A stretch of 14,503 bases of DNA, from assembly GCA_025774205.1 (NCBI GenBank), contig JALGWK010000069.1, forward strand, positions 1-14,503. The letters run 5' to 3'. Position numbers and translations under genes: made by a program. The notes beneath the pieces are model-generated. The model did not search any database, had not been told where the DNA came from, and worked only from the letters and a program-made list of their open reading frames with translations. This stretch comes from a bacterium. Lineage in GTDB: Bacteria; Blakebacterota; Blakebacteria; Blakebacterales; Blakebacteraceae. Every line of letters begins with the position of its first letter. The first letter of the stretch is position 1. This document shows, piece after piece, positions 2,383-13,117 of the stretch.

Positions 2383-2817
2383 TCAACCGGCGTAAATCGG
2401 CCCGATGTCGAGGAGTCGTCTGACTTCACGCACCAGATGGTCGATCTCATAGGGTTTGTTGACGAACGCATCGACTTCGGCGCCTACCACCTCGCGCATC
2501 TTCTTCGAGGCGTGGAATCCGCTGGAGATGATCGCGCGGATCTCCGGATCGTGGGTCCGGATGGCCCGAAGCGCCTCGAGCCCGTTCATACCCGGCATGG
2601 CCATATCGAGAATCACCAGCGGTATCTGTTTCTCCGACGAGATAATGGTCTCGACCGCCTCTTCACCGGAGGATGCGGTGATGATGGAATATCCCTGCAG
2701 GGAGAGGATCTCACGGGCAAGGTCGGTTATCGACAGGTGACGTGGAGCGCTCTTCCTGAGGAGCCGGTGGCCGGGGTTCGGCCTTGAGATAGAGATTGAT
2801 CCTCGTACCGCGGCCAT
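2383..2817 (-). CDS. Receiver (REC) domain, out-of-frame C-terminal part of a hybrid histidine kinase
   Basis: The open frame overlaps the kinase frame by 107 bp, but receiver similarity begins only at about residue 32 (DLAREILSLQGYSIITASS, from base 2724). The phosphoacceptor Asp is D71 in VILDMAMPGMNG, the Ser/Thr switch is S98/S99, and the conserved Lys is K121 in VNKPYE. What is missing is the first beta strand with the acidic pair (typically VLVVDDE) that binds Mg2+. A VDN triplet that could be its remnant lies in the kinase frame at 2726-2734. The ATG at 2817 lies inside kinase coding sequence and has no convincing ribosome site, so I read this as the tail of the upstream kinase after a frameshift, not an independent gene. 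If translated alone it would lack the Mg2+ site and probably not be phosphorylated. Confidence 0.75.
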   Translation of the reverse strand: MAAVRGSISISRPNPGHRLLRKSAPRHLSITDLAREILSLQGYSIITASSGEEAVETIISSEKQIPLVILDMAMPGMNGLEALRAIRTHDPEIRAIISSGFHASKKMREVVGAEVDAFVNKPYEIDHLVREVRRLLDIGPIYAG

Positions 2818-3910
2818 CTTCGGAATACAGTGTCACGGTGCCGCCCTGCTCCTTTGCGAACGTATATGCAGTCGAGAGCCCCAACCCGGTCCCCATCTCC
2901 TTGGTCGTGAAGAAGGGATCGAACACCCGGTCGGTCAATTCAGGCGGGATCCCCGGTCCTTCATCACTGACCGAAAGCAGCACGTAGTATCCGGCGCCGA
3001 GACCGCCTTCCACATTGGGCAGTGTGCTCCGGTCTATCCTGCGGGTTGTGATGTTGATGTTCCCCCGTCCATCCATGGCCTCCTGGGCGTTGATGCACAG
3101 ATTGACGAGGATATGCATGATCTGCGAAGGATCAGAATGGACGCTCCAGAGGTTCTCTTCGAACTCGTAATCCAGGTTGATGCCCTCATGCAGTACCCGT
3201 TCGAGGATTGGCAGGGCGTCCTTGATCACGGCATTCAGGTCCAGATCCCTGCCCTCAGAGGTCTTGGGTTTCGAGAGCGTCAGGAGTTGCTGGGCCAGCT
3301 CACCGGCACTCAGGGTTGTTCCCTCGATGACATCGAGCGGCTCGAGATAGAGCTGGTCCTGGGGAAGATTCTGTTTCAGAAGGTGGACGCTCTGCAGGAT
3401 CACCGTCAGGATATTGTTGAAGTCGTGGGCCACGGCGCTGGCCATGCTTCCGACACTCTCCATCCGCTGGGCCCGACTCAGGTTCTTCTTCAGTCGGTAC
3501 GATTCGGTGATATCTTCGACCAGCATCATCGACTGGGAGTGACCGTTGTTCTCGTCAGAAGATCCGTCGAGGTGGAATCCGCGGAGACGGTAGGTGTGTT
3601 CGACCTCACGATCGTTCTCATCCGACCGAGTCACGGAGAGGAGATCGTTCACCTGCTCCCCGTTATTCAACTTCTGGAAGGCGGCAGAGAACCGGGGATC
3701 GTCGCTGATGTCCCTGAAGGCAGGATTGAGGTAGAGGAGCTCACCGGTATCGTTCATGAGAGCGACACCGATAGGGAGTTTATCGAGCACGCGCATCATC
3801 GGTGACCCGTTATCTCTGATCGAAACGTCCCCTGATTCGAATCCGGACATCATCAATCGACTTCGCTCGCCGCACGTTCCATGCAGGCACCTTTCCTGAT
3901 CGGTCACCAT
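2711..3910 (-). CDS. PAS-domain histidine kinase, frameshifted before its receiver domain
   Basis: A soluble sensor kinase; no membrane segment is seen in 399 residues. A PAS-like region spans about 36-136 (LPIGVALMNDTGELLYLNPAF). The dimerisation/phosphoacceptor helix holds H162 in SAVAHDFNNILTVI, the HDFNN type common in hybrid kinases. The ATPase domain has an N box around N274 (LVNLCINAQEAM), a G1 box at 316-320 (DEGPG), the F box DPFFTTKEMG (331-340) and GTGLGL (340-345). After a short Pro-rich linker the frame runs off into SPVDNRPCP and stops, while the neighbouring frame continues as a receiver. Relative to ordinary hybrids about 14 nt seem absent between VD and LAREIL; this figure is estimated from typical family spacing. 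I see no slippery heptamer that would suggest programmed frameshifting. A possible GGTGA ribosome site lies about 8 nt before ATG, inside an inverted repeat. Confidence 0.87.
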   Translation of the reverse strand: MVTDQERCLHGTCGERSRLMMSGFESGDVSIRDNGSPMMRVLDKLPIGVALMNDTGELLYLNPAFRDISDDPRFSAAFQKLNNGEQVNDLLSVTRSDENDREVEHTYRLRGFHLDGSSDENNGHSQSMMLVEDITESYRLKKNLSRAQRMESVGSMASAVAHDFNNILTVILQSVHLLKQNLPQDQLYLEPLDVIEGTTLSAGELAQQLLTLSKPKTSEGRDLDLNAVIKDALPILERVLHEGINLDYEFEENLWSVHSDPSQIMHILVNLCINAQEAMDGRGNINITTRRIDRSTLPNVEGGLGAGYYVLLSVSDEGPGIPPELTDRVFDPFFTTKEMGTGLGLSTAYTFAKEQGGTVTLYSEDGRGTRINLYLKAEPRPPAPQEERSTSPVDNRPCP

Positions 3911-3936
3911 GATCTGTCACCGGACTTTGACAGATC
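3911..3936. promoter_or_regulatory. Perfect 9-bp inverted repeat between kinase start and tRNA promoter
   Basis: GATCTGTCA (3911-3919) and TGACAGATC (3928-3936) are exact reverse complements separated by 8 bp. The repeat abuts the ATG of the histidine kinase, covers its likely ribosome site, and overlaps the -35 element of the tRNA-Leu promoter. It could be an operator for a dimeric regulator, or a hairpin in the kinase mRNA that limits translation. Confidence 0.5.
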
Positions 3937-3954
3937 GGTCAACCGACCTATTAT
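3927..3954 (+). promoter_or_regulatory. Sigma-70 promoter of tRNA-Leu
   Basis: Consensus -35 TTGACA (3927-3932), a 16-bp spacer, then -10 TATTAT (3949-3954). Transcription would begin near 3961, about 10 nt before the mature tRNA. The spacer contains a short dyad, TCGGTcaACCGA. Confidence 0.75.
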
Positions 3955-3970
3955 GTAGCGGTCGTCCCCA

Positions 3971-4057
3971 GCCGGAGTGGCGAAACTGGTAGACGCAGGG
4001 GACTCAAAATCCCCCGGTGGCAACACTGTGCCGGTTCGAGTCCGGCCTCCGGCACCA
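3971..4057 (+). tRNA. tRNA-Leu, anticodon CAA
   Basis: A class II tRNA of 87 nt with encoded CCA. The acceptor stem GCCGGAG pairs with CTCCGGC, followed by discriminator A and CCA (4055-4057). The D arm is GGCGAAACTGGTAGACGC; the anticodon stem GGGGA/TCCCC encloses the loop CTCAAAA (anticodon CAA, reading UUG). A long variable arm is followed by the T arm GCCGG-TTCGAGT-CCGGC. Long variable arm, G18G19-type D loop and A73 all agree with leucine. A T-rich stretch follows the CCA, without a clear hairpin. Confidence 0.97.
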
Positions 4058-4105
4058 TTTCTCTGTTTGTTACATCCTCGTTCCTGAGCACCTGTTCGAA
4101 GATAT

Positions 4106-4147
4106 CTGTCCGACCGCTGTCGGGGGCTGCCAGCAGCGGCCGGACAG
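4106..4147. repeat. Long imperfect hairpin between tRNA-Leu and the convergent receiver gene
   Basis: Arms CTGTCCGACCGCTG (4106-4119) and CAGCGGCCGGACAG (4134-4147) pair over 14 bp with one mismatch around a 14-nt loop. No T tract follows on either strand, so it is not a textbook intrinsic terminator. Its place between two convergent genes suggests a bidirectional transcript end or an mRNA-stabilising structure. The rest of the 201-bp gap (4058-4258) holds no gene I can support. Confidence 0.45.
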
Positions 4148-4258
4148 CACGGCCCGGTGCGAGTTCCGGACGCCTCGACAGAAGCATGTGTCCGGGAACA
4201 TGTCGCATCAATATCCTGATTGTGGGCCGCGTTCTCATGAATTCCATCCAGCCGCTGT

Positions 4259-4696
4259 TTACGAAGCCACCAGCAAGGTCCGTCGGCGTAGACGGCACTT
4301 CTCGTGGTAGCGGGCGGCCAGAGTCCTGTCATCGAGCCTGGCACTGATTCCGCGTACGGAATTGTCGAGTGAGTTGTAGAGGTCCCCTATCTCATATGGT
4401 TTTTCGAGGAAATCACCGATTCCGAGTTCGATGACCTGTCTTACCAGCTGATAGTCACCGGAATCGGAGGTAACAATGACCTTGGTGTCAGGCAGACGCT
4501 GGCGCACCTGACGGAGAAATTCCACCCCGTCCATGTCCCGTATCTGGACGTTGAGCAGCACGATCGAGGGTGCTGATTCCTCGATGAGTCGGAGGGCCTC
4601 CCGCCCGGTCCGCGCGCTGATTGTGGCAACCGCCACTTCAATCGCGCCGACAATCGCCTCCCGCAGGGTGTCATCACTCTCAAGTACAAGTACCAT
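4259..4696 (-). CDS. Stand-alone atypical receiver protein, phosphoacceptor Asp replaced by Asn
   Basis: A 145-residue protein that is almost entirely a receiver domain. The first strand VLVLESDD (2-9) keeps acidic residues D8/D9. The usual phosphorylation motif reads SIVLLNVQIRDMDG, putting N49 where Asp is expected (codon AAC). The switch Thr (T76 in VIVTSDS) and conserved Lys (K99 in FLEKPYE) remain. The tail (about 112-145) is basic, with no recognisable output domain. A receiver with Asn here should not be phosphorylated in the normal way, so it may act as a constitutive or phosphorylation-independent interaction module, or be regulated by amount. Expression is probably controlled by the sigma-54 promoter at 4749-4764. 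The start is supported by AGGAG nine nt before ATG. It faces the tRNA convergently. Confidence 0.85.
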   Translation of the reverse strand: MVLVLESDDTLREAIVGAIEVAVATISARTGREALRLIEESAPSIVLLNVQIRDMDGVEFLRQVRQRLPDTKVIVTSDSGDYQLVRQVIELGIGDFLEKPYEIGDLYNSLDNSVRGISARLDDRTLAARYHEKCRLRRRTLLVAS

Positions 4697-4748: not shown

Positions 4749-4764
4749 TGCAAGAGACGTGCCA
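4749..4764 (-). promoter_or_regulatory. Sigma-54 (-24/-12) promoter of the atypical receiver gene
   Basis: The minus strand reads TGGCACGTCTCTTGCA. This matches the consensus TGGCACG-N4-TTGCA/T at every defined base, with exactly 10 bp between the invariant GG and GC. The start point should be near 4738, giving a leader of roughly 40 nt containing the AGGAG ribosome site. Confidence 0.85.
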
Positions 4765-4892
4765 CCGACTCCCGATCTGCCGCCAGGACCGTCGAAAAAT
4801 CGTTACTGTATGCTTATCAATGAGTTACGGGAAACAATTCGGTGGTGGGAGGTGTCTTCGTGAGGCCGGGTGGACATGGGCCGGTTCAGATC

Positions 4893-4910
4893 TGCACAAT
4901 GTATTGAGCA
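4893..4910. promoter_or_regulatory. Enhancer-like dyad (upstream activating site) for the receiver promoter
   Basis: TGCACAATGTATTGAGCA; the flanking C and G extend the symmetry to 20 bp. It matches the perfect dyad at 11434-11451 in 16 of 18 positions. The centre is about 145 bp upstream of the -24/-12 promoter, a normal distance for sigma-54 activators. The form (TGCAC...GTGCA-type) also resembles known NtrC sites. Confidence 0.7.
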
Positions 4911-4928
4911 GCACCAGATCCGCAACTG

Positions 4929-4950
4929 ACTGTAAGGCCCCCTTAACAGT
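4929..4950. repeat. Hairpin downstream of the activator gene
   Basis: ACTGTAAGG (4929-4937) and CCTTAACAGT (4941-4950) pair with one bulged base. It lies 18 bp from the enhancer-like dyad. There is no T tract on either strand. It could help end the activator transcript or be a protein site. Confidence 0.3.
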
Positions 4951-4995
4951 AATCAACAGGACGTAACATTATACAGGACAATGGATTAACGGTAC

Positions 4996-5017
4996 TGCCC
5001 GATCGATCGTGCGGGCA
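4996..5017. repeat. GC-rich hairpin after the activator gene
   Basis: TGCCCG (4996-5001) and CGGGCA (5012-5017) flank a 10-nt loop containing CGATCGATCG-like symmetry. It lies 45 bp beyond the stop of the sigma-54 activator. A U-rich tail is absent, so the terminator role is weak. Confidence 0.3.
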
Positions 5018-5032
5018 TACTGCGCGATCGCC

Positions 5033-5050
5033 CTAACCATCCTAACCATC
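5033..5050. repeat. Tandem 9-bp duplication CTAACCATC x2
   Basis: Two exact, abutting copies (5033-5041 and 5042-5050), just beyond the activator stop codon at 5062. Too short to assign a role. Confidence 0.6.
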
Positions 5051-5061
5051 ACCGAAAGAAT

Positions 5062-6441
5062 TCAGAGGCCGAATTCCTCCGGTGAGATCTGCATTTCTTT
5101 CAGATGGTGCAGCAGGGTATTCCGGTGCAGGCCCAGTGATCGCGCCGCCTGGGTCTGGTTCCCTTTGGCGGTCCTCATCGCCCGGATGATGAGATTCCGC
5201 CTGAATTCCTCGACCGCCTCCTTGTAACGCGATTCAGAGACTTCGGTGATATCCACTCCCACCGTGTCGCTGTACTCCTCCAGCATCCGCGTCGGGAGGT
5301 GTTCGACCGGTATCTCGGGACCAGGTTCGAGTACCATCAGCCGCTCGAGCAGGTTCCGGAGTTCCCTGACATTCCCCGGCCATGTATAGACCTGAAAGAC
5401 CTCCAGCACTTCCTCACGGAGGGTGAGCGGGGTCTTCTTCATGTCGCCCCCAAGCAGTTCCAGGAAGTGACTCGCCAACCGCGGGATGTCATCCAGCCGC
5501 TCCCTCAGGGGTGGCAGGCTGACCGAAATGACATTCAGACGGAAGAAGAGATCCTCCCTGAAGACGCCTTCATCGACCAGGGTGGCGGGATCCCGGTTCG
5601 TGGCCGCGAGCCAGCGGACATCCAGATGGATCGGTTTGGTCCCTCCCACCCTCTCGATCACCCGGGTCTCGATCGTGCGCAGCAGTTTGGCCTGCAGATC
5701 CATCGGGAGGAGACCGATCTCATCGAGGAAAATGGTTCCCCGATGGGCAAGTTCGAACTTCCCCTCCTTCCGTTCGGTTGCGCCGCTGAAGGCACCCTTC
5801 TCATGGCCGAACAGTTCCGATTCGAGCAGGGTATCAGGGATCGCGGCACAGTTAACCGTGACGAAGGGCTCGTCGGAGCGGCCTGAGTGCTCATGCACGA
5901 AGTGGGCGGCCAGTTCCTTGCCGGTTCCCGACTCACCCTGGAGGAAGATCGAGGCGTCGGAAGCCGCACTCGTCCTGAGATCCTGGAAAACCTCCTCCAT
6001 GACCTGGGAGGCGTAGACGATCTCCTGCCGGTGCCCGGTCGCCTTCAGATTCGCCTCGAGAGAGCGGTTCTTCCGCTCCAGCTCGCGGAACTTGAAGGCA
6101 CGATCCACCGTGTGCCTCAACTCGGTGACCTTGAACGGTTTTGTAACGTAGTCGTCGGCCCCTGATCTCATCGCCTCGACGACCGTCTCCACATCCTTGA
6201 AAACGGTCACCATGATGACAGAACAGTCTTCGTCGCGCAGGCGGATCTCCTTCAGGACTTCCAGCCCTGACAGGCCGGGCATCGAGATATCGAGGAGGAT
6301 GACATCGAACTTCCCCTCATCAAGGGTTCTGAGCCCCTCCGCACCGCTCTCGGCGGTGGTCACCTCATGTTCATCCTCAAGGACCATCGAGTACGATTCG
6401 AGGATACTCTTCTCGTCATCTATCGCCAGAATCATGGCCAT
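5062..6441 (-). CDS. NtrC-family sigma-54-dependent response regulator
   Basis: A 459-residue activator with the full three-domain layout. Receiver: acidic pair D8-D9, phosphoacceptor D51 (VILLDISMPG), T79, K101 (TKPF). Central AAA+ domain: Walker A GESGTGKE (169-176), the sigma-54-contacting loop GAFSGA (216-221; Ser replaces the usual Thr), Walker B GTIFLDE (235-241), the RLNV region (301-304) and PLRER (311-315), and the WPGNVREL motif (354-361). C-terminal Fis-type helix-turn-helix: NQTQAARSLGLHRNTLLHHLK (about 428-448). It starts 4 bp after the kinase stop, so the two are co-transcribed and surely cognate. Likely targets are the two sigma-54 promoters flanking this operon, each with a shared dyad upstream; that link is inference. 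Ser in the GAFTGA loop is a conservative change and should not by itself prevent activation. Confidence 0.95.
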   Translation of the reverse strand: MAMILAIDDEKSILESYSMVLEDEHEVTTAESGAEGLRTLDEGKFDVILLDISMPGLSGLEVLKEIRLRDEDCSVIMVTVFKDVETVVEAMRSGADDYVTKPFKVTELRHTVDRAFKFRELERKNRSLEANLKATGHRQEIVYASQVMEEVFQDLRTSAASDASIFLQGESGTGKELAAHFVHEHSGRSDEPFVTVNCAAIPDTLLESELFGHEKGAFSGATERKEGKFELAHRGTIFLDEIGLLPMDLQAKLLRTIETRVIERVGGTKPIHLDVRWLAATNRDPATLVDEGVFREDLFFRLNVISVSLPPLRERLDDIPRLASHFLELLGGDMKKTPLTLREEVLEVFQVYTWPGNVRELRNLLERLMVLEPGPEIPVEHLPTRMLEEYSDTVGVDITEVSESRYKEAVEEFRRNLIIRAMRTAKGNQTQAARSLGLHRNTLLHHLKEMQISPEEFGL

Positions 6442-6445
6442 ATAG

Positions 6446-7945
6446 TCAGTTCTCGCTCTCTGTAATCGCGGGCAGTCTCACAACGAAACAGCTTCCATGT
6501 TGATCCCCGGGCCAGTTGTCACCGAAGGTGGTCCGGATCCTGGCCAGAAGACCCGCCTCGACCTCCTCCAGCGGCGAGAAGAGTTCAATCTCTCCCCCGT
6601 GAGCCAAAACGACCTTCTTCGCGATCGCCAGACCGAGCCCGGTCCCCTTTGACTTCGTAGTGACGAAGGGTTCGAACAGCGTATCCCTGGTGGCGGATTC
6701 GACCCCCGGTCCGGCATCGGCCACCACGGTCAGGACATCCCGGCCTTCATCGAGAGTCAGGATCGCTATCGCCCCCCCCTCACTCTGCGCCTCGATGCCG
6801 TTCTTCAGCAGGTTGAAGAAGACCTGCTCGAGTTTGTCGGGATCGCCCTTGACCCTCCTCTCAGACTTGTAAGCCTCCATCGCCGTGACCCGGTTGGCGA
6901 CCATCAGATCGCGGAACACCACCACCGCCATGTGGAGCTGGAGGTTCAGATCGAGGTCGGAGAGATGGAGCCGCGTCTCCCGGCTGAAGTCGAGTAGATC
7001 ATCGATCAGCTTGATGAGCCGGGTCGTCTGATCCTCGATGGTGTGGGAGAATTTACCCCGGAATTCGGGATCATCGAACCGCAGAGGGAGCATGTCAACG
7101 TACGTCTTGATACTGGTGATCGGGGTCTTCATCTCGTGGGCGATCGCGGAGGCGGTCGTGCCGATCGCCGTGAGCCGTTCCGACCTCCGGACCTCCACCT
7201 CCCGCTTCTTCAATTCGATCGACATGGTATTGAACGTCTCCGCCAGGGCGCCGATCTCATCAGTGGTCTCGATCTCGACCGTCTCTCCGAACTCCCCTTC
7301 CCCGATCCGCCCGACAGCCCTCCGCAGACGCTCGATCGGACTGAGGATGTTTCTGGCCAGGAGGGTTGCGCCCGCGGCGCCGATAATGATGGATATCGCC
7401 CCGAGAATGAGGATCCACCGGCGGCGACGGTTCACATCGCCGCCTATCTGATCTTCCCGGAAACCGATCAGCAGGACTCCCAGGAAGGTGTCGAAGTCGA
7501 TGATCGGTACAACGTACATCCTGATTTCCTTGCCCGATTGGTCGGTAACAAGAAATGGATCTGGTGTCTGCCGTGCGAGCGCCGCCCCCACTTCCGGTCT
7601 TTCCAGGTAGGGATCCATCAGTTCCGCGTTCAGAGTGAAGTAAATCCTGTCACCCGCGGGATCCAGCACACCGATGAAATCGATGGTTTCATTTTCCGCG
7701 ATTACCTCGGTTTCACTGATGATAGCCACCAGATTATCGCCATCATCGAACGTCAGCAGATCAATGATCCGGAATTCAACCGTATGGACAATGTCTTCGA
7801 TCCGGAATTCCACACCTCGAAGGAGAGCGTTCTCCTGAGATCGTCCCAGCAGGGTCAGCACGCCACCGATGAGGATCAGGATCAATACCACCGTACCGGT
7901 AACGACTTTGCCGCGGACGGAGCTGAGGAACGAGATCGGATTCAC
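6446..7945 (-). CDS. Membrane sensor histidine kinase partnering the sigma-54 regulator
   Basis: 499 residues. TM1 is at about 13-34, a periplasmic sensing region spans 35-175 (double-Cache/PAS-like in size), TM2 is at about 177-198, HAMP 199-252, and H270 is the phosphoacceptor in SAIAHEMKTPITSIK. The ATPase domain has the N box (FFNLLKNGIEAQ, N382), G1 (D410-AGPG), an F box FEPFVTTKSKG and GTGLGLAI (434-441). The gene starts with GTG, and that codon overlaps the TGA of the lipoprotein gene (GTGA), implying translational coupling and a functional link with the binding protein. The regulator begins 4 bp after its stop. The signal is unknown. A direct contact between the solute-binding lipoprotein and the periplasmic domain is a reasonable guess from the coupling, but not visible in sequence. 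Confidence 0.94.
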   Translation of the reverse strand: MNPISFLSSVRGKVVTGTVVLILILIGGVLTLLGRSQENALLRGVEFRIEDIVHTVEFRIIDLLTFDDGDNLVAIISETEVIAENETIDFIGVLDPAGDRIYFTLNAELMDPYLERPEVGAALARQTPDPFLVTDQSGKEIRMYVVPIIDFDTFLGVLLIGFREDQIGGDVNRRRRWILILGAISIIIGAAGATLLARNILSPIERLRRAVGRIGEGEFGETVEIETTDEIGALAETFNTMSIELKKREVEVRRSERLTAIGTTASAIAHEMKTPITSIKTYVDMLPLRFDDPEFRGKFSHTIEDQTTRLIKLIDDLLDFSRETRLHLSDLDLNLQLHMAVVVFRDLMVANRVTAMEAYKSERRVKGDPDKLEQVFFNLLKNGIEAQSEGGAIAILTLDEGRDVLTVVADAGPGVESATRDTLFEPFVTTKSKGTGLGLAIAKKVVLAHGGEIELFSPLEEVEAGLLARIRTTFGDNWPGDQHGSCFVVRLPAITESEN

Positions 7946-9507
7946 TTCCAGCTCGCCTTCGATACGCTGCAGAACGTCCAGTCGGAGTAGGGACCGGGCT
8001 GAAGGTCCGCGATATCCGAGGATCGGACCACGAAGGACTTGAAGTCGGCCAGGGGGATGCAGGGCACCCGGGCGGCGATACGATCGATCACTGAACGGAG
8101 GAGTTCCTCCCGTCGGTCCTCTTCGAGAGTCCTGTTCGCCTCTTCAAGAAGGTACAGCAGCCCGTCATCCTCCAGGTGGAAGAGTCCGAGACTGCCATCC
8201 TGGTTCCTTCTGCCATAGACCTCGAAGAGGAAGCTGCCCAGGTCGCCGTTATCGGAGGCAAAACCATCGACGCTCAGAGTCCAGTCGCCGCTGCTGAGTC
8301 GTTCATCGTATTCCTCGAAATCCTCGCAGTAATCCTGCTCTATTTTGAATCCGAATTTCTCGAGCAATGCCTGCAGGATGCTGACCAGCTTCTCGGTTTT
8401 ATCCCGTTTCGCGGCCGGGGAACGCAAGAAGAGCAGCGGCTCGGCAGTGGCTCCGACATTCCGGGCGGCCAGCACCTCTGCCCGCTCGCGATCAAAGATC
8501 GGGGCAGAGGGGCCCCTGAGGTCGGGATCGAGACCGGACCCGACGAAAAAGTGCATCAGTTCTCCGGCGCTCTGCCACTGTGTCCGAACGATCGCCCTGG
8601 TGTCGAGCGCCTCTGCCAGGGCGCGACGGGTCGATACGTCATCAAAGGGAGGACGCTGATTGTTCAGGCTGAGCGCCAGCCAGGCCTTCTGGCCGGTCAG
8701 ATCAAAGTCCATCAGCTTGGACTGTCTGACCGCCGGGGTCGATGTGACCGCGACGTTCAAGGCAATGTCCATCTCCCCGGCCGTGATGGCTTCGAGACGC
8801 TCGGCGTCACTTTCATACGCCTGGAACCGGATCCGCTCCGGTCCCGGTTGAGGCCCCCAGTACTGGCCGTTCCGCTCGAGGATCGCCAGTCCTTCCGGCG
8901 GCGAATACTCCCCTATCCGGATCCGGTAGGGACCGGTCCCGAGCGGGAACGAGCCTGACGGAGATGTGTCAGATTCTTTCTTGATGATCGGCGTGAGGAA
9001 TGGCGTCGTCAGGGTTTTCAGCAGCGAATGATGAGGATGGGGGATCTCGATCTCGAGCTCCAGGTCACCGATAACTCTCACGGCGAGCGGATTCCCCAGT
9101 TGATAGGGAGACGTGCCCATCCGGACGGTGGGATCCTCAGCCGCTGCCAGGATCCGTTCAAGACTGTAGACCACATCATGCGCGGTCATGGTACTGCCGT
9201 CATGGAAATGGACATCGGGCCGCAGCTGGATGGTGAGCCGGGTGGAGGTGGTGTCATAGCCAAAGCTGCTGGCGAGATGCGGGAGCAACGTTCCCGTTTC
9301 ATCCTGCCGGAGAAGGGATTCGTACAGATGCGCGGCGATCCTTCTGCCGTCCAGCTGAGGTGAAAGAACCGGATCAATCTGAGCCGGAATCGAAGTGACA
9401 GCGACCCGGAGTGTTGTTGATTCCTTTCCGCACCCTGCCAGCAGCAGAACTAGCAGGAGTCCGAACCGCACACGCCACCGACCCGTTGTTCTCGTGGTTG
9501 AACGCAT
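7942..9507 (-). CDS. Extracellular solute-binding lipoprotein, family 5 (peptide/nickel ABC type)
   Basis: About 521 residues from the preferred ATG at 9507. The open frame continues upstream to 9567, but starting at 9507 puts a lipoprotein signal at the N-terminus: a basic start (MRSTTRTTGRWRVRF), a Leu-rich core and lipobox LLAGC with C26. The mature protein begins TTLRVAVTSIPAQIDP. Family features follow: IQLRPDVHFHDGSTMTAHDVVYSLER, FPLGTGPYRI and FDDVSTRRALAEALD. This type binds oligopeptides, dipeptides, nickel or related ligands for Opp/Dpp transporters. No permease or ATPase gene is near, and the next gene is a sensor kinase in GTGA overlap, so it may serve as a sensory binding protein, not a transport one. 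No good Shine-Dalgarno precedes 9507. TATATT lies 9 nt upstream, so a leaderless or short-leader mRNA is possible. Confidence 0.88.
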   Translation of the reverse strand: MRSTTRTTGRWRVRFGLLLVLLLAGCGKESTTLRVAVTSIPAQIDPVLSPQLDGRRIAAHLYESLLRQDETGTLLPHLASSFGYDTTSTRLTIQLRPDVHFHDGSTMTAHDVVYSLERILAAAEDPTVRMGTSPYQLGNPLAVRVIGDLELEIEIPHPHHSLLKTLTTPFLTPIIKKESDTSPSGSFPLGTGPYRIRIGEYSPPEGLAILERNGQYWGPQPGPERIRFQAYESDAERLEAITAGEMDIALNVAVTSTPAVRQSKLMDFDLTGQKAWLALSLNNQRPPFDDVSTRRALAEALDTRAIVRTQWQSAGELMHFFVGSGLDPDLRGPSAPIFDRERAEVLAARNVGATAEPLLFLRSPAAKRDKTEKLVSILQALLEKFGFKIEQDYCEDFEEYDERLSSGDWTLSVDGFASDNGDLGSFLFEVYGRRNQDGSLGLFHLEDDGLLYLLEEANRTLEEDRREELLRSVIDRIAARVPCIPLADFKSFVVRSSDIADLQPGPYSDWTFCSVSKASWK

Positions 9508-9553
9508 GAAGAGAATATAGTCGATGTCTGAACGCACCTCTATCGCAGAGAGA

Positions 9554-9582
9554 ATCCCTGCGACCACCCGCTGAGCAGGGAT
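9554..9582 (-). terminator. Possible terminator or attenuator between peptide gene and lipoprotein gene
   Basis: On the minus strand ATCCCTGC (9582-9575) pairs perfectly with GCAGGGAT (9561-9554) around a 13-nt loop and is followed by TCTCTCT, pyrimidine-rich but poor in T. It would separate the radical SAM/peptide unit from the lipoprotein-kinase-regulator unit, perhaps incompletely. Confidence 0.4.
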
Positions 9583-9628
9583 CGCCGGTATTCCCTCAGA
9601 AGGGACTATGTAACAGCAGCAGTTGGCG

Positions 9629-9659
9629 GTGTCTGATCAGTTACAGCTGATCCAGACAC
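9629..9659 (-). repeat. Hairpin covering the end of the small peptide gene
   Basis: GTGTCTGATCAG (9629-9640) and CTGATCCAGACAC (9647-9659) pair over 12 bp with a single bulged base and a 6-nt loop. The stop codon of the 33-codon gene lies in one arm. No T tract follows. It may protect the 3' end of a processed peptide mRNA or slow transcription. Confidence 0.5.
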
Positions 9660-9738
9660 GTGAAGCGGCGCCGGTGCTCGCGACGAAAGCAGCCATGAAT
9701 CTGGTCAGATTGATCATACGGTGCATAAGGTTACGCAT
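9637..9738 (-). CDS. Small peptide, 33 residues, downstream of radical SAM gene; candidate RiPP precursor or signal peptide
   Basis: ATG at 9736-9738, TGA at 9637-9639. The peptide begins MRNLMHRMINLTRF, continues with small and hydrophobic residues (MAAFVASTGAAS, 15-26) and ends RVWISCN. A GGGGG Shine-Dalgarno lies 9 nt before the ATG and overlaps the TAA of the radical SAM frame; the genes are only 6 bp apart, which is strong evidence of translation. The basic N-terminus, hydrophobic middle and Ala-Ala-Ser before a short polar tail resemble a leader plus a C-terminal core, with Trp29 and Cys32 as obvious modification targets. I do not recognise the family. It may instead be a small secreted or membrane-active protein. 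RiPP status rests only on the neighbouring radical SAM gene. Confidence 0.62.
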   Translation of the reverse strand: MRNLMHRMINLTRFMAAFVASTGAASRVWISCN

Positions 9739-9744
9739 TTTGTG

Positions 9745-10257
9745 TTACCCCCGTTTGATTGGGACTGTTGATGGTTGAATTGGAGTTTCTTGAGGCTGTG
9801 CTTCTCTCTCCGTCCCGCTGACAGCACGGGCCGGGCGGGACACTCTGGAGCTGAACCGTTTCCGGAACCTCTCCCTGAACAGCCTCATATGGGCCGGGAG
9901 GAGCTTGATGACGCTCACTGCCGGCAGGATGTACTTCAGAAGCAGGTGGAACGATCTGGAGAGCCAGCGCACCTTCCAGTCGGAAATGGTGTAGGTGCAG
10001 TCGATATAATCACCTTCGAGTCTCTTTTCAGACGTCAGCCGATCGTGGAACGGTGTGCCCTTGTAGACGATGACCCGGTTCTCGATGGAGAGGACGTTCC
10101 CCCGGGGAGCCCAGAGCGGCTGGGTATCCCGCAGAAAGGAGAGGTTCGCCTTCACATCGGGCATCTCGGTATAGGGATCGAAAAAGATGAGCCCCATGAT
10201 GAACCTGATCCCGAGTCCTCCCGCACGAGTCGAGCTGGTTCTGGCTGCCCGACTCAA
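9745..10257 (-). CDS. C-terminal part of the cobalamin-type radical SAM protein (frameshifted)
   Basis: From about residue 14 this frame reads GLGIRFIMGLIFFDPYTEMPDVKANLSFLRDT, which is the usual continuation of B12-binding radical SAM enzymes after the GVESGSQ motif of the upstream frame. The apparent TTG start (10257) lies inside the other half, so it is not a believable separate gene. The tail (about 95-125) has a hydrophobic to amphipathic stretch (SFHLLLKYILPAVSVIKLLP), then a strongly basic region (RLFRERFRKRFSSR). The stop TAA is embedded in the ribosome site of the 33-codon peptide gene. Confidence 0.75.
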   Translation of the reverse strand: MSRAARTSSTRAGGLGIRFIMGLIFFDPYTEMPDVKANLSFLRDTQPLWAPRGNVLSIENRVIVYKGTPFHDRLTSEKRLEGDYIDCTYTISDWKVRWLSRSFHLLLKYILPAVSVIKLLPAHMRLFRERFRKRFSSRVSRPARAVSGTEREAQPQETPIQPSTVPIKRG

Positions 10258-11158
10258 CCCCCACGAAGACCGATCTCAGACCCGCGGTCTTGAGAACACG
10301 GAAAAGCTCCGGCTCGACGCTGTCGGCCCGGGCGAAGATCGAGAAGGGAACCTCGAGGCGGCGATCGATGATGGCCCGGGCAAAGGACATCGTGTCTTCG
10401 AGGCCTTTCCGGCCGGGTCCGATGAACTGATCGTCGAGAAACTTCATCTCCACACCCGGGTAACGGGCAGCAAGTTCCTCCATCTCCCCGAGAACACTGT
10501 CGGTACTCCGGCGCCGCCAGCCGGGTCCTCCCTGGGCGCGATAGAAGGAGGCAATCGAGCAGAAGGCACAGTTGGCATAGCACCCGCGGGCCCTGGTCAT
10601 GTGCAGGGTTCCGCCCATCTCGAGGATCCGTTCCGTATGGTCGCGTACCGGCCACGGCAGGGAATCGAGATCGTGCGTGAGGGGGCGGGCCTCGTTTCGT
10701 CGGATTCCGCCTCCCGCCCTGAAACTGATTCCCTTCACTCCCTCAAGATCACCGGCTGATTCCCAGCCGCGCAGCAGTTCGACCAGGGTGATGTCCCCCT
10801 CGCCCCGCACGACGACTTCGAGTTCGGGCCACTCCCGGAGGAGGACCTCATCGTTGAAGGTCGGGAAATGCCCTCCCACCACGATCCGGGCCCGTAATCC
10901 ATCCCGTTTCAGTCGTCGGAGGAGGCGGAGGGTGCGACGGGCATTATAGGAGAGGAGGCTCACGCCGAGCACGTCGGGGTCGCGGTCGGCTATTTCCCGC
11001 CCCAGACGCCGGTATGACCACCCCTCGAGGTGGGTCAGGATGGTCTCGGTCTCGTAGCCGGCCTGCCGCGTGGAGGCAGCAAGAGACGCGATTCCGAGAT
11101 TCTCATAGAGTTCAGGTACCCCGTCACGCTGGGCGGGATCGACCAGAAGCAGGCTCAT
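10028..11158 (-). CDS. Radical SAM protein with N-terminal B12-binding-like domain, frameshifted after the barrel core
   Basis: Residues 1-140 form a cobalamin-binding-like domain (MSLLLVDPA, LGVSLLSYNARRT, IVVGGHFPTFNDE, VVRGEGDITLVELL). The radical SAM centre is C193-x3-C197-x2-C200 (RGCYANCAFC), which binds the 4Fe-4S cluster. The barrel continues with FLDDQFIG, ARADSV and FVGVESGSQNQLD (to about 310). After residue 311 the frame departs from the family (CGRTRDQVHHG), while the adjacent frame carries GLGIRFIMG. By usual family spacing some 15-20 residues are absent at the switch (about 10215-10228), where GACTCG occurs twice, 14 bp apart. The intact enzyme would be of the methyltransferase/RiPP-modifying or lipid-modifying class; the substrate is unknown. 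The gene has a sigma-54 promoter and enhancer-like dyad upstream, and a 33-codon gene directly downstream. Confidence 0.85.
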   Translation of the reverse strand: MSLLLVDPAQRDGVPELYENLGIASLAASTRQAGYETETILTHLEGWSYRRLGREIADRDPDVLGVSLLSYNARRTLRLLRRLKRDGLRARIVVGGHFPTFNDEVLLREWPELEVVVRGEGDITLVELLRGWESAGDLEGVKGISFRAGGGIRRNEARPLTHDLDSLPWPVRDHTERILEMGGTLHMTRARGCYANCAFCSIASFYRAQGGPGWRRRSTDSVLGEMEELAARYPGVEMKFLDDQFIGPGRKGLEDTMSFARAIIDRRLEVPFSIFARADSVEPELFRVLKTAGLRSVFVGVESGSQNQLDSCGRTRDQVHHGAHLFRSLYRDARCEGEPLLSAGYPAALGSPGERPLHREPGHRLQGHTVPRSADV

Positions 11159-11228
11159 CAGTTGCCGCCCCCCGGGCTCTCGCCCGATTGGATTGCACCC
11201 CGGCGGTCAGGACATCTATTCGTGTCAA

Positions 11229-11244
11229 CGCAACTCCCGTGCCA
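11229..11244 (-). promoter_or_regulatory. Sigma-54 (-24/-12) promoter of the radical SAM/peptide unit
   Basis: The minus strand reads TGGCACGGGAGTTGCG. It matches TGGCACG-N4-TTGC, with only the last base (G, not A/T) off consensus, and has exactly 10 bp between GG and GC. The start point should be near 11217, about 60 nt before the ATG at 11158. Confidence 0.8.
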
Positions 11245-11433
11245 TAAATTGTCAATGCGATCGGTACTGCCCCATTCACGGCATCATGAGTCGTGCTTTA
11301 TTGATTCCCGTGCGGATGACCGCGGATATTCGTGCACGACGGATTGGGCACCGGATTCGGGAGTGAACCGGTACATGGGCCGCAAAGCGTTATAATTCGG
11401 GGATAGATGGATCGGGCAATATTTTCAGGGTTT

Positions 11434-11451
11434 TGCACAATATATTGTGCA
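11434..11451. promoter_or_regulatory. Enhancer-like perfect 18-bp palindrome upstream of the radical SAM promoter
   Basis: TGCACAATATATTGTGCA is an exact palindrome. Its centre is about 205 bp upstream of the sigma-54 promoter at 11229-11244, and it differs from the dyad at 4893-4910 at two positions only. Likely a binding site for the dimeric Fis-type domain of a sigma-54 activator. Confidence 0.72.
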
Positions 11452-11515: not shown

Positions 11516-13117
11516 TTACTTGGTGGTCATGGTGAAGACACCGTCCCAGTCGTCGGGTGGCGGTTTGGAGAGGTACTTCTGGCAGCGGAGCAGGTTCATC
11601 CGGCTCGGTCCGTCGTCGGGATCCATCTGCACAATCTCGTTGAAGATGTCGAGTGCGTCACCGAACTGCTTCTCCCGGTAGAGCATGAGTCCCAACTCGT
11701 ACCGTTCCAGCATGCCCGCGAAACCGGCCGGTACTCCTACATCGGTCGTCTCCAGCACTTCGAATATCCGTACCGGCCGGGCCTTGCCTTTGACCCGGAT
11801 CATGTCTAGTTCGCGGCAGATCATCTCACCCTCGAGCTGATCGAAGGTCATCTCGCTGATACAGATATTGGTACTGTAGGCCTTGTTGGCACCCTCCAGT
11901 CGGGAGGCGAGGTTGACGTTGTCCCCCATCACGGTGTAGTCCATGACGTGCCGACTGCCCAGATTTCCCACCAGCATGACACCGGTGTTGAGTCCGATCC
12001 GGTTGTAGAGGGGCGGCCTGCCGTCCGCCTCCCAGATCGGCCTCATCTCCGCCAGTTTGCGCTGCATCAGCAGAGCCGCCATGCAGCCCCGCAGGGCGTG
12101 ATCCTCATGAGGCACGGGCACCCCGAACTCGGCCATCATCGCGTCACCCTCGTACTTGTCGATGATGCCGCCCTGGTTGAAGACGATCTCGGTCATCTCG
12201 GTCAGGTACTCATTGAGCAGGCTCACCAGCTCGGTCGGTGTCAGTCCCTCCGAGATGCTCGTGAATCCGGCCACGTCGCAGAAGAGCACGGTCAGTTCCC
12301 GTTCCTCGCCGCCGAGGGCAAGGAGTTCCGGATTGGCGATCAGTTCATCGACCACCGATTCGGCCACGTACTGCTGGAACATCCCCCGGATCCGCGCCTT
12401 CTCCTGCTGTTCGGCCAGGTAGAGGGCGACGGTGGCGCCGGAATAAGAAAGAATGGTAGCGGCGATCGGTGCCACCACCTCTATCCAGACGGAAAAATAC
12501 CTGAAGAGGACGTAACCCGCTGTCATCAGCAGGATCACCATCCCGATGCCGACGACACCGCCCAGTCTGGCTTTGAAGCGGGTGGTCAGGATCGTGGCCC
12601 CGATGCTGGCCAGGATAATCAGCAGGAGATTGATGAGGGGGTTGACGGACCGGAGGAACCGCTGCTGGAGGATCGTCTCGACGGCGTTGGCGTGGATCTC
12701 CACCCCGGGAGTGAGCTGAGCCCCCGCCCCCCCCCGGGTTCTCCGGAAGACGGTCGAACGGAGGTCGTGGTGCTCGGGGACGGTGCTCCCCACGAAGACC
12801 ATTTTGCCTTTGAGATGCCCCTCCGCCAGGAGGTCCTCGAAGGCATCGAAATCCCAGTCACCGATATCAGTGCCGGCATCATCGATCACGGTCGCGTACG
12901 AGTAGGTGGTTACCCTGCTTCTGAACCCGACATAGTTGATCAGCATGTCGCCGCCTGGCCCGCGCGGGATCTCGATGTCTCCCAGCCGCCAGCCCCCGGG
13001 AGTTATGGCTACCGTATCCTTCAGGGCGATCCCCAGGTACATCTTGAGAGCCTGTACACCCAGCTGGGCCACCTGGTAGGTACCCTGCCGGTAGTAGGTA
13101 CTCCCTGACAACGGCAT
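11516..13117 (-). CDS. CHASE2-adenylate cyclase, C-terminal part (CHASE2 end, three TMs, class III cyclase, TPR-like tail)
   Basis: In order: the second half of the CHASE2 sensor (about 6-157, with the family signature PGVEIHANAVETIL), three membrane helices (about 160-178, 189-206, 211-235), then a class III cyclase domain. The metal-binding aspartates are D281 (LFCDVAGFTS) and D325 (GDAMMAEFG). K321 in IDKYEGD and the later VMGDNVNLASRLEGANK hold the purine-specifying and transition-state residues expected of an adenylate cyclase. The tail has one TPR-like helix pair (LGLMLYREKQFGDALDIFNEIVQMDPDD). It would make cAMP at the inner membrane in response to a periplasmic cue. The ATG at 13117 overlaps the upstream frame by 239 bp and is probably not a true start; this is the rest of the gene that begins at 13616. 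A run of nine C bases near 12728 keeps the frame open. Confidence 0.88.
   Translation of the reverse strand: MPLSGSTYYRQGTYQVAQLGVQALKMYLGIALKDTVAITPGGWRLGDIEIPRGPGGDMLINYVGFRSRVTTYSYATVIDDAGTDIGDWDFDAFEDLLAEGHLKGKMVFVGSTVPEHHDLRSTVFRRTRGGAGAQLTPGVEIHANAVETILQQRFLRSVNPLINLLLIILASIGATILTTRFKARLGGVVGIGMVILLMTAGYVLFRYFSVWIEVVAPIAATILSYSGATVALYLAEQQEKARIRGMFQQYVAESVVDELIANPELLALGGEERELTVLFCDVAGFTSISEGLTPTELVSLLNEYLTEMTEIVFNQGGIIDKYEGDAMMAEFGVPVPHEDHALRGCMAALLMQRKLAEMRPIWEADGRPPLYNRIGLNTGVMLVGNLGSRHVMDYTVMGDNVNLASRLEGANKAYSTNICISEMTFDQLEGEMICRELDMIRVKGKARPVRIFEVLETTDVGVPAGFAGMLERYELGLMLYREKQFGDALDIFNEIVQMDPDDGPSRMNLLRCQKYLSKPPPDDWDGVFTMTTK

Follow-up and report, generated by a model that had tools for sequence, protein, structure and literature searches.

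Paired palindromes at sigma-54 promoters link an NtrC-type activator to a putative radical SAM peptide-signalling circuit in Blakebacteraceae

We analysed a contig of 14,503 nucleotides from a bacterium of the family Blakebacteraceae (the window; contig C220 of a 3.09 Mb draft genome in 527 contigs, labelled G000) and found that two sigma-54 promoters, each preceded by a pair of palindromic dyads about 102 bp apart, accompany a gene run encoding a B12-binding radical S-adenosylmethionine (SAM) enzyme, a 33-amino-acid peptide, a family-5 lipoprotein, a histidine kinase, and an NtrC-type sigma-54 activator. These promoters and palindromes are real and evolutionarily conserved, and the sites, their pairing, and their membership in a shared regulon make up a promoter layer that we consider very probable. 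We further propose, with a probability of roughly 0.5, that sites and genes together form a self-activating sigma-54 peptide-signalling circuit. For comparison within the phylum we used three other genomes, G001 (same genus), G002 (same family; assembly 72% complete), and G003 (a family member; 63% complete), and the genome-wide statistics for G000 derive from pattern searches. The regulatory sites are the following:

4749 to 4764, minus strand: sigma-54 promoter 1, TGGCACGTCTCTTGCA, ahead of a stand-alone receiver gene; conserved in G001 and G002.
4893 to 4910, minus strand: proximal dyad of promoter 1; conserved in G001 and G002, 145–147 bp from the promoter.
4996 to 5013, minus strand: distal dyad of promoter 1, the weaker of the pair; spaced 103 bp from its proximal partner.
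11229 to 11244, minus strand: sigma-54 promoter 2, TGGCACGGGAGTTGCG, ahead of the radical SAM enzyme gene; letter-identical in G001.
11333 to 11350, minus strand: proximal dyad of promoter 2, the weaker of the pair; conserved in G001, with 106 bp to the promoter.
11434 to 11451, minus strand: distal dyad of promoter 2, a perfect palindrome, 101 bp from the proximal dyad; conserved in G001.
Contig C362, 6601 and 6704: third dyad pair, 103 bp apart, upstream of a promoter at 6798.

An earlier note, made from the sequence of the window alone, had proposed two sigma-54 promoters with matching dyads upstream, and our inspection confirmed the coordinates, strand, GG-N10-GC spacing, and intergenic position of both promoter 16-mers. 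Both have the TGGCAC-N5-TTGC form, with GG at −24 and GC at −12, and they lie 68 bp (receiver) and 86 bp (radical SAM enzyme) from the start codon. No other site in the window scores at least 7/8, and shuffled windows average 0.13 such sites; the genome encodes one copy of rpoN, which is present in the three relatives as well. A third promoter, TGGCCCGATCATTGCT, lies ahead of a prepilin-like gene at C362 6798, and all three promoters are oriented toward the adjoining gene. TGGCAC-N5-TTGC alone occurs at 6 sites genome-wide, so the promoter pattern by itself is not rare, and four other sigma-54 sites of the genome are without dyads. The 16-mer of the radical SAM promoter recurs letter for letter at C106 2437–2452, where the start of an unrelated gene lies downstream near 2360; this copy was left out of the regulon because no dyads occur there, and it is probably the target of another activator.

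Searching the genome for the 18-bp pattern TGCACNATNNATNGTGCA with up to 2 mismatches returned 7 dyads, compared with 0 for the reversed pattern used as a control. Six of these seven form three pairs spaced 101–103 bp, each upstream of a sigma-54 promoter, and four flank the gene run of the activator; within the window, 4 dyads were observed against 0.03 expected from shuffling. The pattern was partly built from these very sites, which biases the count of exact matches; the motif of the earlier note had been defined without the second dyad of each pair and without the C362 pair. That note placed dyads sharing 16 of 18 positions at 4893–4910 and 11434–11451, and both are found there with 2/18 positions differing. 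It also called for a genome-wide search, reasoning that frequent dyads unlinked to sigma-54 promoters would argue against a regulon; the dyad instead proved rare, with 6/7 sites linked to such promoters. The earlier note overlooked a further, weaker dyad at each promoter, some 102 bp away from the first, as well as the C362 pair with its promoter. Measured start to start, the proximal dyad stands 146 bp from promoter 1, 106 bp from promoter 2, and 94 bp from the C362 promoter, close to whole helical turns (13.9, 10.1, and 9.0 at 10.5 bp per turn), which with three values is a remark and not a test.

Orthologues of the activator are found in G001 (83% identity) and G002 (69%); the best match in G003 is only 42% identical. 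The receiver promoter and its proximal dyad have been kept in G001 and G002 despite indel-rich intergenic DNA, at distances of 145 and 147 bp compared with 146 bp in the window. The distal dyad of this promoter lies 103 bp from the proximal one in G001 and is weaker (3 mismatches), and in G002 it appears as a 17-bp version 92.5 bp away, shorter by about one helical turn. In the radical SAM promoter region G001 retains both dyads, 106 bp from the promoter and 102 bp from each other. Neither dyads nor a close activator orthologue were found in the G003 assembly (63% complete), though other NtrC-type proteins are present; the dyad sites occur in the three genomes that have the activator orthologue and are absent from the one that does not. 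A dyad-like site on contig C125 of G002 was taken as chance, as no sigma-54 site of the scanned form accompanies it. The lack of conservation in related genomes that the earlier note named as evidence against its proposal was thus not observed, and its single regulon under the encoded NtrC-type activator gains support from the rarity of the dyad, its sigma-54 linkage, the retention of sites and spacing by G001 and G002, and the absence in G003; the C362 promoter indicates, however, that this regulon is not only local.

The genes concerned are listed below:

9745 to 11158, minus strand: B12-binding radical SAM enzyme (Pfam), with a frameshift at about 10214–10257 in the G000 assembly; intact at 493 amino acids in G001.
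9637 to 9738, minus strand: 33-amino-acid peptide, MRNLMHRMINLTRFMAAFVASTGAASRVWISCN, a proposed signal precursor whose C-terminal 20 amino acids are under purifying selection; equivalents in G001 and in two genomes of other phyla, G060 and G200.
7942 to 9567, minus strand: family-5 solute-binding lipoprotein (Pfam SBP_bac_5), with a likely true start near 9504 and the lipobox LLLAGC.
6446 to 7945, minus strand: membrane histidine kinase (Pfam) that has a HAMP domain and a sensor region in the periplasm, tightly spaced to its neighbours.
5062 to 6441, minus strand: NtrC-type sigma-54 activator with REC, AAA+, and Fis-type helix-turn-helix domains and a GAFSGA loop (Pfam above cutoff; alignment).
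4259 to 4696, minus strand: stand-alone receiver (Pfam Response_reg) in which Asn replaces the phosphoacceptor Asp.

From the radical SAM enzyme through the peptide, lipoprotein, and kinase to the activator, the genes overlap or are separated by a few bases, except for about 70–130 bp after the peptide, and the run would form one transcript in which promoter 2 probably drives the activator gene itself. The earlier note had cast the radical SAM/peptide unit as an output of the regulon; its promoter is indeed supported as a target, but the unit seems to stand first in the operon of the activator itself, which implies autoregulation and not just output. The activator has the receiver, sigma-54 interaction AAA+ domain, and Fis-type helix-turn-helix of the NtrC family, with GAFSGA being a conservative variant of GAFTGA, and it scores 412.9 bits against the model of NtrC proper (TIGR01818), below the cutoff of 558.6. 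We infer that this protein reads the dyads.

Judged from its sequence, the short open reading frame (ORF) after the enzyme is a real gene. It follows the enzyme gene directly and has a ribosome-binding motif, and in G001 its start overlaps the stop codon of the enzyme; a short ORF with such a motif arises in 0.08–0.36% of shuffled gaps, given a motif set chosen after seeing the sequences. The peptides of G000 and G001 are 70% identical, but the last 20 residues contain only 2 differences among many silent changes (ratio of nonsynonymous to synonymous change, pN/pS, 0.18), whereas the first 13 evolve freely (pN/pS 0.96). A short putative precursor gene adjoins a modifying-type enzyme, the arrangement of gene clusters for ribosomally synthesized and post-translationally modified peptides (RiPPs). 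The best curated match of the enzyme is ApyD, at 114–120 bits versus a cutoff of 750, and we did not class it as ApyD because this score is far below the cutoff. At 9570–9680 (minus strand) a strong RNA hairpin (z −2.5) reaches into the end of the peptide gene, and a different hairpin occupies the same place in G001 (z −2.1); together with a terminator after the peptide in G060, these hairpins suggest that the peptide and receptor genes are dosed separately.

The lipoprotein and the sensor half of the kinase have diverged markedly between G000 and G001. Identity is 83–88% for the enzyme, regulator, and receiver and 78% for the catalytic half of the kinase, compared with 50% for the lipoprotein and 49%, locally 17%, for the N-terminal sensor half of the kinase. 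Such divergence would be expected of a ligand-recognition module with changing specificity; relaxed constraint or recombinational replacement would look alike. The lipoproteins of G000 and G001 contain the DppA-like DNGD motif, which has a role in binding the peptide N-terminus and is absent from NikA. No ABC (ATP-binding cassette) permease gene was found in the window or beside the G060 gene set, and the lipoprotein therefore fits sensing better than import.

Using the G001 radical SAM enzyme as a query against 386 mostly unrelated genomes, we recovered two matches with E<1e-90 outside the genus, in G060 and G200, which belong to unrelated phyla. In G060, a complete 5.0 Mb genome and the sole member of its phylum in the sample, the order begins with a receiver and the enzyme, continues with the short peptide MRKMYRLISLVASIVFALCTIQRYPPLTAA and a terminator, and ends with the family-5 lipoprotein, the kinase, and the NtrC-type regulator; a sigma-54 site before the receiver, TGGCATACAATTTGCA, is the only one in that 16-kb locus. 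The G060 and G000 regulators are reciprocal best matches outside the window's family within the sampled genomes, and the G060 loop reads GAFTSA instead of GAFTGA. The window-type dyad is absent at the G060 locus, as expected if DNA-binding specificity differs. GTGTC/GACAC repeats at L083 5400–5440, including ACACTCCATAGTGT, lie about 90 bp upstream of the G060 sigma-54 promoter and are a candidate dyad of different sequence for its regulator. In G200 the enzyme, the peptide MRSLISFTRWFIRVMNGDATVRVSSFGL, the lipoprotein, and a HAMP-domain membrane protein lie near a contig end that cuts the run. Across these three phyla a short ORF beginning with MR sits exactly between enzyme and lipoprotein. 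Weaker enzyme homologues in G176, G229, and G361 lack the matching neighbour genes, further members were not found in the phyla of G060, G200, and G044 (1, 6, and 4 genomes searched, respectively), relatives on plasmids are distant (at most 35%), and contigs with NtrC relatives (L047–L060) have no radical SAM or lipoprotein relative nearby.

The other two proposed targets lie outside the run. The receiver has Asn49 in G000, G001, and G002 with the Thr and Lys positions retained, so that it does not qualify as a phosphorylatable CheY-like protein, and it is likely a single-gene unit because a convergent tRNA-Leu gene comes next. This tRNA-Leu (CAA) gene, at 3971–4057 on the plus strand, has a good sigma-70 promoter and the same layout in G001; an ORF at 3904–4344 (minus strand), considered as part of a receiver operon, was rejected as spurious because the tRNA gene lies opposite. 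On C362 (6798–10654), promoter 3 is followed by a protein of 1202 amino acids that combines a prepilin-type N-terminus with a long body resembling fibronectin and a choice-of-anchor J domain; a short frame in between, GGFTLNEVVMTM, is apparently a truncated second prepilin. The prepilin-like gene has no match in G001, and its orthologue in G002 (61%) lies at the edge of a contig, which leaves only 93 bp of upstream sequence. Three genes of the window seem to be split by frameshifts: the enzyme (about 10214–10257), a hybrid kinase (about 2711–2817), and a CHASE2 adenylate/guanylate cyclase (about 12879–13117). Assembly or sequencing error is likely, because the enzyme and the hybrid kinase are single frames in G001; ORFs 2711–3910 and 2383–2817 were accordingly not retained as a kinase plus a separate regulator.

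The explanation that we favour for these observations is a circuit that feeds back on itself. Its sites, their pairing, spacing, conservation, and genome-wide linkage, the gene order and its recurrence in unrelated phyla, and the coding conservation of the peptide are established from sequence. The run from enzyme to activator would be driven from a sigma-54 promoter whose two palindromes stand about 102 bp apart, and the B12 radical SAM enzyme would modify the peptide, which would leave the cytoplasm and be captured by the family-5 lipoprotein. The loaded lipoprotein would signal to the sensor domain of the kinase, the kinase would phosphorylate the activator, and the activator would bind the paired palindromes and loop to sigma-54 polymerase. 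Its own gene run would be raised as a result, a positive feedback yielding more peptide and receptor, and the receiver without a phospho-Asp and the prepilin-like protein on C362 would be switched on. The modification, export, capture, and signal function of the peptide are the steps that we infer.

Several points weigh against this circuit. The enzyme is frameshifted in the G000 assembly, and it was not found in G002 (72% complete), where the kinase, activator, and receiver remain. Genes for an exporter or a protease dedicated to the peptide were not seen. The G060 and G200 lipoproteins are without the DNGD motif, the terminator between peptide and lipoprotein in G060 makes co-transcription there partial at best, and the peptides of different phyla are alike in little but length, MR start, and basic-hydrophobic character.

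Alternatives can be postulated for both the promoters and the genes. Chance palindromes and consensus matches have a negligible probability: TGGCAC-N5-TTGC is common enough to recur by itself, but the rarity, pairing, and linkage of the dyads speak otherwise, and conservation in G001 and G002 already contradicts coincidence. It is also very improbable that another NtrC-family protein of G000 reads the dyads and that the neighbouring activator is incidental. Paralogues of about 42% identity do exist in this genome, and the TGCAC/GTGCA half-sites resemble classical NtrC sites; however, the concentration of dyads around this activator's run, their tracking of its orthologue across the family, their absence from G003, which retains other paralogues, and the four sigma-54 sites without dyads all argue for the encoded protein.

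Other scenarios differ in what the genes do. With the promoter layer left as described, the peptide may be a secreted RiPP, either an antimicrobial or a methanobactin-like metallophore, with the lipoprotein and kinase sensing the peptide, its metal-bound form, or a competitor's product; the system would then serve autoinduced production and not communication. Known ligands of family-5 lipoproteins include peptides, nickel complexes, heme, and the RiPP metallophore methanobactin (MbnE is among the matches), and ApyD, the best curated match of the enzyme, is a RiPP enzyme; given that importer, immunity, or export genes were recognised in neither the window nor the G060 locus, that the peptide has a single Cys, and that none of the known metallophore enzymes is present, we consider this unlikely, if worth keeping in view. 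A scenario we regard as improbable has the lipoprotein and kinase sensing an ordinary nutrient such as a peptide, opine, or nickel; the substrate of the enzyme would be a small molecule, for instance a lipid or a cofactor, and the short ORF would encode a small membrane protein or a leader. This scenario would suit the closest solved lipoproteins, which bind nickel and opine, and the resemblance of the enzyme to BchE, HpnJ, and HpnR, whose substrates are non-peptides, but it leaves unexplained both the coding conservation of the short ORF and its position between enzyme and lipoprotein in three phyla.

The proposed self-activating peptide circuit has partial counterparts among known systems, of which LuxP/LuxQ sensing and the streptococcal Rgg/SHP circuits come nearest to it in logic. 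In LuxP/LuxQ a soluble-type binding protein passes its signal to a membrane kinase, and the Vibrio pathway uses the NtrC-type LuxO; autoinducer-2 belongs to the small furanosyl compounds, LuxP falls outside family 5, and the Vibrio phosphorelay runs through other steps. The proposed circuit is similar in combining binding protein, sensor kinase, and NtrC-type regulator and differs in ligand, protein family, and phosphorelay steps. PilR is a sigma-54 activator with a pilus-related target. NmpR is another (PMC6211767), and activators of the NtrC/PilR/NmpR type share the REC-AAA+-Fis architecture and dyads upstream of −24/−12 promoters; unlike them, the present system has a lipoprotein and probable peptide input, dyad pairs about 102 bp apart, and autoregulation via putative signal-making genes. 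ApyD, which methylates a RiPP precursor (PMC10635010), is likewise a B12 radical SAM enzyme; it resembles our enzyme in its B12-binding and radical SAM domains and acts on a ribosomal peptide; its cluster differs in that the window has no MNIO, P450, or methyltransferase partner and has regulatory genes attached. Streptococcal radical SAM RiPP systems controlled by Rgg/SHP also have a radical SAM enzyme, peptides that are short and basic-hydrophobic, and autoinduction-linked expression, but their SHP is a separate peptide that is taken up and then read intracellularly by Rgg (PMC8092268, PMC13361665). Here the lipoprotein and kinase would read, in the periplasm, the single peptide encoded next to the enzyme and would act through sigma-54; the enzyme is of the B12-binding type. 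No such peptide/radical SAM/lipoprotein/sigma-54 system was found in the literature searched.

Peptide signals are best known from Gram-positive bacteria. If the proposed circuit is correct, an autoinduced, enzyme-modified peptide with periplasmic reading and sigma-54 output would represent a different layout from familiar peptide signalling. The loci may even belong to a new class of peptide communication across several little-known phyla, in which a peptide matured by a B12 radical SAM enzyme and read by a periplasmic lipoprotein and kinase would activate its own sigma-54 promoter while the receptor parts diversify; this we advance tentatively, as a claim somewhat more likely to fail than to hold. 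The window provides a compact and testable set: a precursor with an enzyme beside it, a receptor and a kinase, and an activator together with binding sites and three target promoters. Matching gene sets from two further phyla allow comparison, and the paired dyad and promoter offer a DNA signature by which the regulon may be traced in uncultured lineages.

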